Assembly: GCF_900110205.1 (NCBI RefSeq) | Contig: NZ_FOCV01000005.1 | Span: 1 to 64,000 of the forward strand | Direction of reading: 5' to 3' | Source: Rhizobium tibeticum | Lineage (GTDB): Bacteria > Pseudomonadota > Alphaproteobacteria > Rhizobiales > Rhizobiaceae | Length of the DNA: 64,000 nucleotides | Shown: piece by piece, positions 24,695 through 32,575 of the stretch | Layout of the letters: each line of letters opens with the position of its first letter | Position numbering within the stretch: the first letter of the stretch is position 1 | The notes under the pieces: model-generated | The model's input: only the letters and a program-made list of their open reading frames with translations | The model's database searches: none | What the model was told of the DNA's origin: nothing | Program-made: the position numbers and the translations under genes

Positions 24695-25504
24695 ATGGCA
24701 CGTCAGACCTATTGGAAGGGCTATCTCAAGCTGTCACTCGTCACCGCCGCGGTATCGCTGACGCCGGCGACAACGGAAAGCAACCAGCTTCGATTTCATG
24801 TCCTGAACCGAAAGACGAAGAACCGCGTCGAAAGCCGCTACGTCGACAGCGTCACCCGCAAGCCGATTGCCGACAAGGATCAAGCCCGAGGATATCCGCG
24901 CGGCGAGGACGACTACGTCATTCTCGAAGACAAGGAACTCGACGAAGTCGGCTTGGAAAGCACGAAGACGATCGACATCGATACCTTCGTGCCGCGCGGC
25001 TCAATCGACTGGATCTGGTACGACAAGCCACATTTTCTCACCCCGGAGGACAAGGTCGGCACCGAAGCTTTCTGTGTGATCCGCGAATCGATGAACGCAA
25101 ACGATGTCGTTGGCATCGCCCGGCTCGTCCTCTACCGGCGCGAACGGGCAGTCCTGCTTGAGCCGCAGGGCAAGGGCATTATTCTGTGGACGCTTCATTT
25201 CGGCGACGAGGTTCGCCCGCCGGCAGCGACACTGGACAGCCACAGCAAGGTGGATGACACCGTGCTCTCCCTGATGAAGAAGCTGGTGAAGGACCGGACC
25301 GAGGAATGGCAACCGGCCATGGTGCAGGACCCGATCCAGAAACGGCTGAGGGCAATGATCCGTGCGAAGCAGAAAAGCCTCGTCAAAGCGACACCACCAT
25401 CTTCCAAGGGGCAGCCACCGAAACCGACGGGCAACGTCGTCAATATCATGGACGCACTGAAGAAAAGCCTCGCCAAGGAAACAGGCCGTCCGAAATCTCA
25501 CTGA
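24695..25504 (+). CDS. ku: Ku protein (NHEJ), first copy
   Basis: A 269-aa bacterial Ku. MARQTYWKGYLKLSLVTAAV matches the Ku N-terminus; RVESRYVDSVTRKPI and YPRGEDDYVILEDKELDEV the core; SIDWIWYDKPHFLTPED the ring; a basic C-tail (MIRAKQKSLVKATPP, then NIMDALKKSLAKE) follows. Ku dimers thread onto broken DNA ends and recruit LigD. I chose ATG 24695; the frame is open further upstream but that sequence is degraded. It converges on ligD (21-bp gap). A second Ku lies beyond ligD. Sinorhizobium is known to carry several Ku proteins, some of which act as heterodimers. Confidence 0.93.
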   Translation: MARQTYWKGYLKLSLVTAAVSLTPATTESNQLRFHVLNRKTKNRVESRYVDSVTRKPIADKDQARGYPRGEDDYVILEDKELDEVGLESTKTIDIDTFVPRGSIDWIWYDKPHFLTPEDKVGTEAFCVIRESMNANDVVGIARLVLYRRERAVLLEPQGKGIILWTLHFGDEVRPPAATLDSHSKVDDTVLSLMKKLVKDRTEEWQPAMVQDPIQKRLRAMIRAKQKSLVKATPPSSKGQPPKPTGNVVNIMDALKKSLAKETGRPKSH

Positions 25505-28041: not shown

Positions 28042-28869
28042 TCAGCTCGCCTTCGTCTGCCCGCTAGCGGCGCGTTTGCTGGCCGGTGGCTTAGCACTCA
28101 GCTTGGCGCTCTGGCGCAGGGCGTCCATGAGATCGATGACCTTGCCCCGCGGCTTTGGCTTCGCTCTCGGCAGCTCCCTGCCCTCGATTTTCGCCTTCAC
28201 CAGCTCCGAAAGCGCCGTCTCGTAGCGATCGTCATATTCCTGCGGATTGAAGGCGCCCTTTTTCGTGCCGATGATATGGCCGGCCAGTTCGAGCATTTCG
28301 TTGTCGAACTTCATATCCGGAATGTCCTTGAAGACGGTATCGGGCTTGCGGACCTCGTAGTCGAAGCTCAACGTCGTCGCGACGACATAGTCGTCCTGCG
28401 GCCGGATCAGCACCGTGCGGTTACGGCGAAACAGCACGGCCTCTGCGATCGCCGCAACCTTTTGATCGTGCATGGCGCGAGCGATCAGTACGAGAGCCTC
28501 CTCGTCATCTTCGCCCGCCGGCGCCAGATAGTAGGGGCGATCGAAATAGAGCTTGTTGATTTCATTGTAGGGTACGAAGTTCTGCACGTTCAGGACTTTG
28601 TCGCTCTGCGGCATGACGCCGGCGATCTCGTCGCCCTCGATGACAATGTATTCGCCGTTGTCCAACTGATACCCCTTGACCTGGTCATCCCGTTCAACCG
28701 GTTTGCCGTTCTCGCTGTCAACGAACTGGCGCTCCACGCGATGGCCGGTCTTGCGGTTGATGATGTTGAACGAGATGCGGTCCGAGGTGGAGACGGCAGT
28801 GTATAATCCCACGCCGCACACGAGGTCTCCGACCTTCAAATGGCCTTTCCAGCTTGCCCGAGCTGCCAT
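28042..28869 (-). CDS. ku: Ku protein (NHEJ), ligD-coupled copy
   Basis: A 275-aa Ku. MAARASWKGHLKVGDLVCGV, HRVERQFVDSENGKPVERDD, YIVIEGDEIAGVMPQSDKVL and NKLYFDRPYYLAP follow the canonical order. The C-tail is Lys-rich (RELPRAKPKPRGKVIDLM, KRAASGQTKAS). Its TGA is separated by 2 nt from the ligD ATG, giving coupled translation. It differs clearly from the Ku at 24695 (for example RASWKGHLKVG against RQTYWKGYLKLS), so the two are old paralogues rather than a recent copy. Confidence 0.95.
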   Translation of the reverse strand: MAARASWKGHLKVGDLVCGVGLYTAVSTSDRISFNIINRKTGHRVERQFVDSENGKPVERDDQVKGYQLDNGEYIVIEGDEIAGVMPQSDKVLNVQNFVPYNEINKLYFDRPYYLAPAGEDDEEALVLIARAMHDQKVAAIAEAVLFRRNRTVLIRPQDDYVVATTLSFDYEVRKPDTVFKDIPDMKFDNEMLELAGHIIGTKKGAFNPQEYDDRYETALSELVKAKIEGRELPRAKPKPRGKVIDLMDALRQSAKLSAKPPASKRAASGQTKAS

Positions 28870-28879
28870 GACATTCCCC

Positions 28880-29110
28880 TCAGTTGTCGTTTTGCAGTTT
28901 AGTCCGGCGCCTTTCGTCCAAGGCTATGATCTTCTCAACGGATGCGACGTCGTCGCTCGTCACTACCGGAACCGGGTCGGCAGCGATGGCTTCGAGCACA
29001 TCCTTCGATAGCCCTCCGTTGCGGATCACCCACTCAAGGGTCTCACGGGTCTGGCGTTCGGCCTTGAGCTGCGCGTAGAGCGCGATAATCAGCCGGTCTC
29101 GGGCATCCAT
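28880..29110 (-). CDS. Small hypothetical protein upstream of ku
   Basis: A 76-aa reading from ATG 29110 (MDARDRLIIALYAQLKAERQ, then WVIRNGGLSKDVLEAIAADP), Asp/Glu/Arg-rich and helical. A longer start at 29173 would add 21 residues. It ends 11 bp before the ku start on the same strand, so it could lead the ku-ligD transcript. The ribosome site is weak. No family is recognised. Confidence 0.5.
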   Translation of the reverse strand: MDARDRLIIALYAQLKAERQTRETLEWVIRNGGLSKDVLEAIAADPVPVVTSDDVASVEKIIALDERRRTKLQNDN

Positions 29111-29173
29111 CTGCCCGCTCTTGCGATCGATCTTTCGGATGTGAGGCACGTGATCACCCGCCCGCGTTTGCAA

Positions 29174-29696
<523 letters not shown>

Positions 29697-29726
29697 AAAA
29701 AAATAGCCACCGCTTGCACGGTGGCT
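29697..29726 (-). terminator. Strong intrinsic terminator
   Basis: On the minus strand AGCCACCG-TGCAAG-CGGTGGCT is followed by A and then seven T. Stem 29705-29726, T-run 29697-29703. It either ends the candidate sRNA or serves thuR as a distant terminator. Confidence 0.85.
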
Positions 29727-29812
29727 GAGAGTATGAGGTCAAGGACCTCCAGAGGGAACAGTTGCGTCATCGACCGGGAGGATGGTCGACATGCGTCAGC
29801 AACCGTCGTCAA
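29697..29812 (-). ncRNA. Candidate trans-acting small RNA with anti-Shine-Dalgarno loop
   Basis: Read on the minus strand, about 115 nt contain three hairpins in a row. The first is TCGACC-ATCCTCCC-GGTCGA (29770-29789), whose loop exposes a CCTCCC-type anti-ribosome-site sequence. The second is GAGGTC-CTT-GACCTC (29735-29749). The third is an intrinsic terminator with eight-bp arms and seven U (29697-29726). The layout resembles rhizobial alpha-r14-type riboregulators, which present CU-rich anti-SD loops; membership is not shown. The 5' end is a guess (a TTGATT...GCATAT promoter-like pair lies just beyond). No protein gene ends at this terminator except thuR, 240 bp upstream. Confidence 0.5.
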
Positions 29813-29969
29813 TATGCAGCTTTGGCGCCGTCCGCTCAATCAACCATGGACCGAAATCCGCTATTTGCGGAAACCATCTTTCCAGATTTTTGCGGAAACG
29901 CGCGATATTCTACCCGCACACTCCCGGGCAGCTCAGCCGTGCGGAGCCCTGGCGCCGAAACGAGGAGGA

Positions 29970-30995
29970 TCAGGGCTTGGACGGCCTCGCTGGCCCGGTC
30001 GATTCCCGCAGTATGAGTTCGACAGGCCACAATTCGTGGATCTCCAGCGCGGACCGCCCCGAGAGCAATTGCAAGACAAGATCGGCGCAACGCGATCCGG
30101 CCGCACGCATCGAAGAGCGCGTCGCCGAAAGCGACGGCACCATGTTGTCTGCTGTCAGGTACGGAAAAACGTCGTCGTGGGCGATCACCGAGACGTCTCG
30201 GCCGATCTGCAGCCCCAGCGATCGAACCGCGCGATAGACGCCGAGCGCCGTCATCATGGATCCCGCCACAAAGGCAGTCGGCGGGTTCGGTTGTTCCAGG
30301 AAGGACCGCGCGAAACGAAAGCCAAGCTCGTCGGTGAAGTTTCCGTTCGCGATCAGCTGCGCATCGGGCTCTATACCGTGGCTTTGAAGGGCCTTGCGAA
30401 ACCCGCTGTCTCGATGAAGGGCGTAGGTGGCGCCCGGCCGGCCATTGATCATTGCGATACGCCGATGGCCGAGGTCGATCAGATGCGATGTTGCTCGTTT
30501 GATCGCGGCTTCGTTGTCGATGTCGAGCCAGGCATGCGGCACGTCGATGGCGGATCGGCCATGCACAAGAAACGGCATGCCGAGTTCGTGCAGTAGCGCA
30601 ATGCGCTCATCGTCGGGTTTGGGCGAATGCACGATGATGGCGTCCACGCGTCGACTTTCCACGAGTCGTCGATAAAGCTGCATCTCGTCTTCATGGTTCG
30701 GATCCGCCATCGGGATGACGAGAATGTCGGTCTCCTCTGCCACCAGTCGCTCCGCCATACCGGCCATGAACTCGGCAAAGTGGAATTCGCCGGCCCGCCC
30801 CATCACCACGCCGATCGCCCCGGCCCTACCGGTCTTCAGCCGCACTGCGTTGACGTTCGGGCTGTAGCCCAGCCGGACCGCAGCTTCGGCAACACGTGCA
30901 CGTGTGGTCTCGCTCACCTCGGGGTAGCCGCTCAGCGCCCGACTGACAGTTGTCGGCGACAATCCCACCTGCTTCGCGAACTCTTTAAGCCTCAT
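29970..30995 (-). CDS. thuR: LacI-family repressor of trehalose utilisation, ThuR-like
   Basis: A 341-aa LacI/GalR regulator. The N-terminal HTH and hinge MRLKEFAKQVGLSPTTVSRA, LSGYPEVSETTRARV is followed by a periplasmic-binding-like core (TSHLIDLGHRRIAMINGRPG) and an effector domain. It is divergent from thuE, exactly as thuR is in Sinorhizobium meliloti, where trehalose and sucrose induce the operon. A 17-bp direct repeat, CCAAACCGTTTTCAATT, occurs at 31086 and 31261 in the shared promoter and is the best operator candidate. Confidence 0.88.
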   Translation of the reverse strand: MRLKEFAKQVGLSPTTVSRALSGYPEVSETTRARVAEAAVRLGYSPNVNAVRLKTGRAGAIGVVMGRAGEFHFAEFMAGMAERLVAEETDILVIPMADPNHEDEMQLYRRLVESRRVDAIIVHSPKPDDERIALLHELGMPFLVHGRSAIDVPHAWLDIDNEAAIKRATSHLIDLGHRRIAMINGRPGATYALHRDSGFRKALQSHGIEPDAQLIANGNFTDELGFRFARSFLEQPNPPTAFVAGSMMTALGVYRAVRSLGLQIGRDVSVIAHDDVFPYLTADNMVPSLSATRSSMRAAGSRCADLVLQLLSGRSALEIHELWPVELILRESTGPARPSKP

Positions 30996-31085
30996 ACGAC
31001 ATTGTGTCTTTCGTCCTGGCCTACCTGGCTGGACGCCAGCAGGTGCTGTCTTCCTTATGGCCTAAGCGTCGCAGTTCGCAAACAG

Positions 31086-31277
31086 CCAAACCGTTTTCAA
31101 TTCTAGATATTCCTCGGCGGGCGATCCTGTTCTTTTCCCACAACCGAAATCAACGCCATCCCTCTGATTTTTCTGTGTTATCAATATGTGATTGCGGTTG
31201 TGCGACTTTGGCACGAGTGCCCGCTTGACTCAATATCGACCTTCTGACAGTTTTTTCCAACCAAACCGTTTTCAATT
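31086..31277. promoter_or_regulatory. thuR-thuE intergenic region with a repeated operator candidate
   Basis: CCAAACCGTTTTCAATT occurs identically at 31086-31102 and 31261-31277. Its core AAACCGTTTT has the partly symmetric, CG-centred form usual for LacI-family operators. One copy lies about 35 bp before the thuE start, the other about 90 bp before the thuR start, so a dimer or looped tetramer could block both promoters. Binding is inferred. Confidence 0.6.
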
Positions 31278-31309
31278 TTCTCAATGTTTGGTTCTTTTGG
31301 GAGGAAGAT

Positions 31310-32575
31310 ATGAAGTTTCGTTTCACAGCGGTCGCCATTGCTGCCGCGTTGATTGGCGTCGCACAGCCGTCCTTTGCCGTAAACATCAGCATCTCGGCCA
31401 GCTCCACCGGCAAGAACCTGGAGCTGTTCCGCAAGCAACTCGACGCCTTCGAGAAGGCAACCGGCAACAAGGTCAGCATCGTGACCATGCCATCCTCCTC
31501 GACCGAGCAGTTTTCGCAGTATCGCCTCTGGCTCGCCGCCGGCAACAAGGACGTCGACGTCTATCAGACGGACGTGATCTGGGCGCCGCAGCTGGCCGAC
31601 CAGTTCGTCGACCTGAAGGATGCGGCGAAGGATGTCGTCGGCGATTTCTTCCCGTCGATCATCGCCTCGCAGACCGTGAACGGCCGCCTCGTCGCCATGC
31701 CGCTCTACACCGATGCACCGGCGCTGTTCTACCGCAAGGACCTGCTCGACAAGTACGGCAAGCAGCCGCCGAAGACCTGGGACGAAATGGCGGCAACCGC
31801 CAAGGAAATCCAGGAGAAGGAACGCGGCGCCGGCCAGAAGGATCTCTGCGGCTTTGTCTTCCAGGGCAACGCCTATGAGGGTCTGACCTGCAACGCGCTG
31901 GAATGGGTCAAGTCGTCGGGCGGCGGTCAGATCATCGAAGCGGATGGCACCATCTCCATCAACAACGAGAAGGCTGCAGGCGCGCTCGACCGTGCCAAGG
32001 GATGGATCGGAACAATCTCTCCTCCCGGCGTCCTCGCCTATCAGGAAGAAGAGTCCCGCGGTGTCTGGCAGACCGGCAACGCCGTCTTCATGCGCAACTG
32101 GCCCTATGCCTACGCGCTCGGCAATGGCGCAGACAGCGCCGTCAAGGGCAAGTTCGACGTCGCAACGCTTCCGGTCGCCAAGGAAGGCGACACCCCGTCA
32201 TCGACGCTCGGCGGCTGGAACCTTGCGGTCTCCAAGTATTCGCAGAACCAGGACGCCGCCATCGCGCTCGTCAAGTTCCTGACCTCCCCGGAACGCCAGA
32301 AGCAGCGCGCCGTCGAGCTCTCGAACCTGCCGACGCTGCAGGCGCTCTACGACGACAAGGACATCGCTGCCGCGCAGCCGTTCATGCCGAACTGGAAGCC
32401 GATCTTCCAGAACGCCGTTCCGCGTCCCTCCGCTTCGGCCAAGGTCAAGTACAACGAGGTGTCCTCGAAGTTCTGGACCGCCGTTCACAATTCCCTCTCC
32501 GGCAACGGTACTGCCGCAGAAAACCTCGAGCTTCTCGAAGCCGATCTGACGTCGCTAAAGGGCGACAACTGGTGA
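31310..32575 (+). CDS. thuE: Trehalose/maltose-binding protein ThuE
   Basis: A 421-aa periplasmic solute-binding protein (family 1, MalE-like). The signal peptide is FTAVAIAAALIGVAQPSFAV. The mature part shows SSSTEQFSQYRLWLAAGNKD, DVYQTDVIWAPQLADQFVDL, the sugar-site region MPLYTDAPALFYRKDLLDKY and a late FLTSPERQKQRA. GGGAGGAAG precedes the ATG. It is first in thuEFGKAB and would deliver trehalose, maltose or sucrose to ThuFG. Confidence 0.92.
   Translation: MKFRFTAVAIAAALIGVAQPSFAVNISISASSTGKNLELFRKQLDAFEKATGNKVSIVTMPSSSTEQFSQYRLWLAAGNKDVDVYQTDVIWAPQLADQFVDLKDAAKDVVGDFFPSIIASQTVNGRLVAMPLYTDAPALFYRKDLLDKYGKQPPKTWDEMAATAKEIQEKERGAGQKDLCGFVFQGNAYEGLTCNALEWVKSSGGGQIIEADGTISINNEKAAGALDRAKGWIGTISPPGVLAYQEEESRGVWQTGNAVFMRNWPYAYALGNGADSAVKGKFDVATLPVAKEGDTPSSTLGGWNLAVSKYSQNQDAAIALVKFLTSPERQKQRAVELSNLPTLQALYDDKDIAAAQPFMPNWKPIFQNAVPRPSASAKVKYNEVSSKFWTAVHNSLSGNGTAAENLELLEADLTSLKGDNW

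Follow-up and report, generated by a model that had tools for sequence, protein, structure and literature searches.

A very probable further alpha-r15 (AbcR) small RNA gene beside thuR in Rhizobium tibeticum, a diverged and lineage-specific copy

The window (the whole stretch of DNA that was analysed, 64,000 nucleotides of Rhizobium tibeticum) carries a predicted small RNA (sRNA) gene 165 nt beyond the end of thuR in the same orientation. A preliminary description of this DNA supplied the name thuR; the family of the encoded regulator was tested with Pfam, and its function is putative. The same description had placed the sRNA at 29697-29812, between thuR and the ku-ligD genes. The locus is correct, with the predicted transcript trimmed to about 29804-29698. 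The placement also stands, with the correction that a 97-aa open reading frame (28883-29173, minus strand) and an apparently decayed small gene intervene on the ku side. The 97-aa frame lies between the sRNA and ku, is conserved in L061-L067, L080, L082, and L191, and had no match in NCBIfam or Pfam. A small open reading frame (MQVIGTQVIPEQGG...) follows the sRNA on its strand in 20 of 33 loci (L061-L093; e.g., L074, 5378-5506, plus strand); the version in the relatives had no Pfam match. In the window, this frame was not matched at the corresponding place (about 29440-29680, minus strand), where a frameshifted remnant was recognized by eye. Several relatives have GGAAC-N16-CGTT before the small frame, which resembles the consensus of the EcfG general stress promoter. 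A second Ku homologue (24695-25492, plus strand), 33% identical to the Ku encoded at 28045-28869, is located on the far side of ligD. Two exact copies of TTGAAAACGGTTTGG lie between thuR and thuE (window 30995-31310); they are probably operators of the LacI-type regulator. The coordinates of the features are summarized in Table 1.

Table 1. Features of the sRNA locus and its upstream region (window coordinates).
Feature	Position	Strand	Basis and remarks
sRNA gene, alpha-r15 (AbcR) family	29698..29804	-	predicted transcript of about 107 nt; ar15 match, same in own-genome search
Hairpin 1, with GGUUGC/GCAACU as outer and UCGACC/GGUCGA as inner stem and AUCCUCCC as loop	29760..29804	-	fold
Seed aSD1, the hairpin 1 loop AUCCUCCC	29776-29783	-	fold; predicted unpaired, 1.0 per base
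Hairpin 2, GAGGUC-CUU-GACCUC	29735..29749	-	fold of the window sequence; weakest helix in orthologues, 80% of cells paired
Conserved UGUUCCCUCUGGAGGU with seed aSD2	29745..29760	-	invariant in 21 sequences
Intrinsic terminator (hairpin 3), AGCCACCG...CGGUGGCU	29698..29726	-	8-9 bp stem followed by A and seven U
Predicted -10, CATATT	29811..29816	-	located 6 nt ahead of the predicted start; no variation among 21 rows at T29814, A29813, and T29811
Predicted -35, TTGAGC	29834..29839	-	17-nt spacer by eye; overlaps conserved TTGATTGA (29836-29843)
Upstream element B, TGGAAAGATGGTTTCCGC	29867..29884	-	conservation about 0.9 in core
Upstream element A, GGTAGAATATCGCGCGTTTC	29895..29914	-	conservation about 0.7-0.8; same letters in L191 by eye
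thuR, LacI-type regulator gene	29970..30995	-	upstream of sRNA, same strand; Pfam LacI and Peripla_BP_1; conserved neighbour

Folding of the minus strand from 29804 to 29698 returned the three hairpins that had been described from the letters alone, including the strong terminator with its seven U and a first loop exposing an anti-Shine-Dalgarno motif. The segment 29830..29680 has a predicted folding energy of -57.6 kcal/mol against a mean of -45.3 for shuffled sequences (z = -3.0; none of 200 shuffles was as good). A terminator scan of 3 kb called a single site against a shuffled mean of 3.0, i.e., not above chance level; this site is the sRNA terminator, the sole terminator-like site in 28500-31500. 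The sigma-70 promoter scan of the 3 kb called none. On their own, the fold and the terminator are weak evidence for an sRNA gene, and the case for one therefore rests on homology. A coding explanation was rejected, as no reading frame was common to all 22 rows of the alignment described below (inspected by eye, the first three frames of at least 10 aa in each row).

The whole window had no match in Rfam at the gathering cut-offs. When 29000-30000 was searched up to E = 10, the best match was to ar15 (RF02345), with 38.6 bits and E = 3.8e-6, and it ran through the model from end to end (positions 1-112 of 112). The window copy thus falls 1.4 bits under the ar15 gathering cut-off (38.6 versus 40), and its score is the lowest among the 16 scored. 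All 15 distinct orthologues that were scored with Rfam exceed the cut-off (41.1-64.1 bits): the twelve orthologues L044-L055 score 41.1-55.9 bits, and a further set gave 42.1 (L065), 57.6 (L068), and 64.1 bits (L069). L061, which has the same sequence as L045, scores 41.1 bits. The Rfam cut-off overlooks what looks like a genuine ar15 copy.

The preliminary description had pointed to alpha-r14 as a covariance model to be checked. The anti-Shine-Dalgarno loop theme and the three-hairpin layout are common to the window sRNA and the alpha-r14 (NfeR1-type) sRNAs; however, the Rfam search of 29000-30000 listed no alpha-r14 match up to E = 10, while ar15 is matched over its whole model, and the motif is present in only one of the three loops. 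We rejected membership in alpha-r14 on these grounds and regard it as extremely improbable. Features of alpha-r15 are present in the window: three hairpins, of which the last is a Rho-independent terminator, and UCCUCCC exposed in the 5' loop. In PMC3712013, alpha-r15 sRNAs are described as having several copies per genome, with the variable 5' hairpin proposed as the discriminating part; similarly, three AbcR homologues are given for S. meliloti in PMC7143759. The genome of R. tibeticum agrees with this multicopy pattern, with three copies over the cut-off in addition to the window copy. Two of them form a tandem pair (AbcR1/AbcR2, C152:95314 and 95529, 115.4 and 109 bits) that is located 65 kb from the window sRNA and adjoins a LysR-type gene (Pfam LysR_substrate and HTH_1); S. 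meliloti AbcR1/AbcR2 lie beside lsrB, as stated in PMC8844928. The third is at C122:109203-109308 on the minus strand (L011 1501-1606, 83.1 bits). A fifth match in this genome, with 18.2 bits, is probably noise. Judged from the sequence, the window sequence is very probably the gene of an alpha-r15 (AbcR) small regulatory RNA, an extra and diverged copy.

We used a 22-row alignment (21 distinct sequences), with the structure taken from the fold of the window sequence, to assess whether the pairing was kept. The paired positions can pair in 95.4% of the cells, versus 25-59% when the partners are slid by one to three columns, a control that leans in favour of the structure since the latter was derived from one of the rows. 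The eight pairs of the terminator are kept in 100% of the cells (21 distinct rows); hairpin 2 is poorly kept across the orthologues. Changes on both sides of a pair occur in three pairs (five cells). Three such pairs were reached by 11 of 500 shuffles, and neither the five cells nor the covariation score was reached by any of the 500. Overall, the stems stay paired, with a small number of compensatory changes. Seed aSD1, as UCCUCCC, is present in 12 of the 22 aligned sequences and absent from ten (L070, L071, L073-L076, L078, L079, L092, and L093). In several of the sequences lacking aSD1, the bases of the former loop are closed off by the inner stem, and the nearest relative, G111, has ACCUCCC at this position. 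The aSD2 core CCCTCTGGAGGT was found in all 22 sequences, which had been gathered with that very string. The two anti-Shine-Dalgarno seeds of S. meliloti AbcR1/2 each act independently, according to PMC8844928, and A. tumefaciens AbcR2 is said, in PMC7486931, to be without the first motif. The loss of aSD1 therefore has a precedent.

The region between thuR and the sRNA is unevenly conserved. Across 21 rows, conservation per 10-nt bin is 0.24-0.51 over 29980-29921, figures depressed in part because the far end of the profile is cut by row ends, and 0.50-0.88 over 29920-29801. The conserved upstream block is about 110 nt long and contains a promoter-like pair. The predicted -10 hexamer was not called by the sigma-70 scan. 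Upstream of it, TTG and TTGA of TTGNTTGA (29843-29836) are invariant in the 21 rows; the exact TTGATTGA is absent from L065, L068, and L069. Elsewhere in the genome of R. tibeticum, element A was found in one place, with three mismatches, and element B in seven places, each with three mismatches. The LsrB box GCAT-N3-TG-N3-T was not found in the 171 nt upstream of the sRNA, and LsrB control was rejected as a candidate; this box marks the AbcR1 promoter and not the alpha-r15 family, and in the same genome it occurs at -61 of AbcR1 and is absent at AbcR2 and from the 200 nt upstream of the C122 copy. The best match of the operator-like TTGAAAACGGTTTGG near the sRNA has five mismatches, so direct control by ThuR is unlikely and was likewise rejected.

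Matches to ar15 over the cut-off were found in 59 of the 100 genomes searched (the genome of R. tibeticum and its genus). By DNA similarity at E = 0.001, 16 of 100 genomes matched, its own included, and this search placed a thuR-side copy in 12 relatives (L044-L055). The sRNA follows thuR in 21 of the 80 named ThuR loci among the matches listed; a distance of 136-180 nt separates its start from the preceding ThuR match in 20 of these 21 loci, and one of 891 nt in L069. Of the 21 named loci with the sRNA, seven (L061-L067; again among the matches listed) have the ku-ligD side, so this neighbourhood is not general. Loci L080 and L082 have thuR followed by the 97-aa frame, ku, and ligD, without the sRNA. 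The plasmid collection gave no match at E = 0.01; at E = 10, there were 39 records with weak partial matches.

A covariance model, R1, was built from 22 sequences. The window sRNA scored 109.8 bits with R1, yet the window is one of the training rows. With a threshold of at least 89 bits, R1 found copies in 22 of 81 sources, all of them training rows, and otherwise nothing above 20.1 bits. Over the genus and with strict filters, a copy with at least 89 bits was found in 25 of 148 genomes, R. tibeticum included, and the next score was 64.1. The other ar15 copies score 36.1-64.1 bits with R1. The sRNA stands above chance because of this homology, namely the ar15 match (E = 3.8e-6) and the R1 copies in 25 of 148 genomes.

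In a phylogeny of 50 distinct sRNA sequences from 42 loci, all 21 thuR-type copies group in a single clade that contains none of the other copies (local support 0.92), a result to be read with care given the roughly 110 sites. An ar15-like sequence located at another place (L196 1501-1606, G168:C15; 64.1 bits with R1) groups next to the thuR-type clade. In the ThuR phylogeny, whose 53 rows are the window and 52 of the 80 named loci (among the matches listed), the presence of the sRNA needs three changes, e.g., one gain and two losses. Since two thuR-bearing lineages are without the sRNA, it is dispensable. The sRNA is very probably a lineage-specific copy kept by one group of Rhizobium species beside a sugar-uptake regulator gene.

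The proximity of thuR raises the question of whether the sequence is only the 3' untranslated end of thuR with its terminator, in which case the hairpins would give the mRNA end its shape and a processed 3' fragment might arise from it. The preliminary description had held that no protein gene explains the terminator well. This does not stand entirely: since thuR ends 165 nt before the sRNA in the same orientation and no second terminator-like site was found in 28500-31500, the thuR mRNA may also end at the sRNA terminator, and the block that follows thuR is conserved. However, conservation is poor directly after thuR and then rises in the promoter-like block, the distance between thuR and the sRNA in L069 is 891 nt, and family homologues are located elsewhere in the R. 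tibeticum genome without thuR. The sRNA INDEPENDENCE from thuR: L191 (genome G146) keeps the sRNA, with 102.4 bits in R1, next to a broken thuR. Genome G146 had no close ThuR (best E = 2.8e-79, versus 1e-159 or lower in the orthologues). Upstream of the sRNA, L191 has a broken thuR remnant (by eye) and then a ThuA frame (Pfam); element A and the TTGGTTGAG / CATAGT pair are recognisable by eye, and Ku and the 97-aa frame are on the other flank. ThuE was not found in the 3.1-kb L191 stretch, whose flanks are short. Loci L070, L092, and L093 keep thuR and the sRNA, and no ThuE was detected beyond noise in the flank searched, even at E = 10. The decayed thuR with an intact sRNA and the three relatives without detectable thuE indicate that the sRNA is not merely the thuR 3' end; if it were only a relic of that end, one would hardly expect it to survive the decay of the gene. 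Together with the upstream conservation, these loci favour an independent gene, and we consider the 3'-end explanation improbable.

A further possibility is that the sequence is a degenerating alpha-r15 copy which has ceased to function in R. tibeticum. The ar15 score of the window copy, the lowest of the 16, the decay of the small downstream gene in the window (no match; remnant by eye), and the loss of the sRNA in some lineages would agree with decay. Against this, the window retains intact stems, aSD2, terminator, and predicted -10 and -35 elements, with aSD1 exposed; we judge a nonfunctional copy to be quite unlikely.

The sRNA would act as follows. A transcript of about 107 nt would start near 29804, driven by its own promoter, and end in the U-tract near 29698. 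The aSD1 loop UCCUCCC and the aSD2 linker GUUCCCUCUGG would pair with the ribosome-binding regions of target mRNAs, probably helped by Hfq, with the result that translation would be blocked and the mRNAs lowered; by analogy with the family, the chief targets would be mRNAs for periplasmic substrate-binding proteins of ABC transporters. Hfq, the covering of ribosome-binding sites, and the decay of mRNAs for ABC substrate-binding proteins belong to the AbcR family mechanism as given in PMC7143759, PMC3712013, and PMC8844928. By the same analogy, the sRNA probably dampens the synthesis of nutrient transporters.

The neighbouring thuE was considered as a dedicated target and rejected. Its ribosome-binding site pairs with aSD1 over 7 nt; the AbcR1 loop pairs with it over 9 nt, better than the aSD1 of the window copy. 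By duplex energy, thuE ranks 87th of 260, in a ranking that is governed mainly by the stem bases of the query segment. Since the sRNA is kept where no ThuE was matched (L070, L092, L093, and L191), thuE is not its sole target.

On the 284-kb contig, the longest aSD1 match is 9 nt, before a Peripla_BP_4 protein. Strings of aSD1 of at least 6 nt occur in 30 start regions versus a shuffled mean of 12.4 and a maximum of 36; for aSD2, there was no excess on this contig (10 start regions versus a shuffled mean of 18.6). Eight genes have aSD1 matches of at least 7 nt, two of which encode substrate-binding proteins, out of six found (P = 0.012, for a pattern seen first and tested afterwards on one 284-kb contig with 260 genes called by a crude script). 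The six had been selected visually among 25 candidates before Pfam confirmed them, and others may be missed. Genome-wide, CGGGAGGAT followed by a start codon was found in nine places, one of these being the opposite strand of the sRNA locus; the other eight include four open frames of more than 200 aa, one of them a substrate-binding protein. With the control CAGGAGGAT, there were 11 places and three frames of more than 200 aa, one substrate-binding-like by eye; thus, the genome-wide pattern had no excess of substrate-binding proteins over the control.

The computational evidence consists of the family match, orthology, the kept pairing, the invariant aSD2, the conserved upstream block, and the persistence of the sRNA beyond the decay of thuR. 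We consider it likely that the locus is the gene of a trans-acting alpha-r15 (AbcR) sRNA, present as an additional lineage-specific copy that has a promoter of its own. The rhizobial riboregulator design that had been proposed for it is supported, with an sRNA gene, an exposed anti-Shine-Dalgarno loop, and a terminator. As far as sequence comparison can tell, it genuinely belongs to a known family, as a lineage-specific member, and what is new is a copy under a conserved control region of its own. Among the titles and opening abstract lines of the AbcR, ar14/ar15, and thuR literature, with subscription papers mostly outside, we found no paper on the thuR-side sRNA locus.

More tentatively, the thuR-side copies may be a distinct further branch of AbcR, duplicated in one Rhizobium lineage, placed under a new input, and with the first seed partly given up, a possibility to which we give somewhat less than even weight. 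If this were true, the input would be the control region of about 110 nt, which has neither an LsrB box nor the thuR-thuE operator-like repeat, and whose elements A and B are without another near-exact copy in the genome. Part of the lineage would then have an aSD2-only regulator, and new wiring and the loss of a targeting module would be combined in one family. A copy that has a conserved control region to itself and outlasts a decayed neighbour illustrates how networks of this kind can gain inputs through duplication. The natural series of both seeds, one seed, and no copy suits the testing of each seed's role. AbcR sRNAs tune the nutrient uptake of rhizobia in soil and on roots.

Compared to known systems, the enterobacterial GcvB is presented, in PMC7143759, as a functional analogue of AbcR that regulates ABC transporter mRNAs; GcvB was not listed by Rfam up to E = 10, and the likeness to the window sRNA is one of analogy only. 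The window sRNA shares with alpha-r14/NfeR1 the strategy of an anti-Shine-Dalgarno loop, and differs in that the alpha-r14 model does not match and that alpha-r14 sRNAs carry the motif in all loops (PMC7143759), the window sRNA in one. With alpha-r15/AbcR1-AbcR2 (RF02345), it shares a full-length match, the three hairpins, the 5'-loop UCCUCCC, the CCCUCUGGAGG block, and the intrinsic terminator; in contrast to alpha-r15, 10 of the 22 thuR-side orthologues are without aSD1. Relative to the tandem AbcR pair of its own genome, the window copy has diverged (38.6 versus 109-115 bits). It is without the LsrB box of AbcR1, as are AbcR2 and the C122 copy. Whereas AbcR1/AbcR2 are located beside a LysR-type gene, the window copy follows thuR, and the thuR-side copies have a conserved upstream block of their own.
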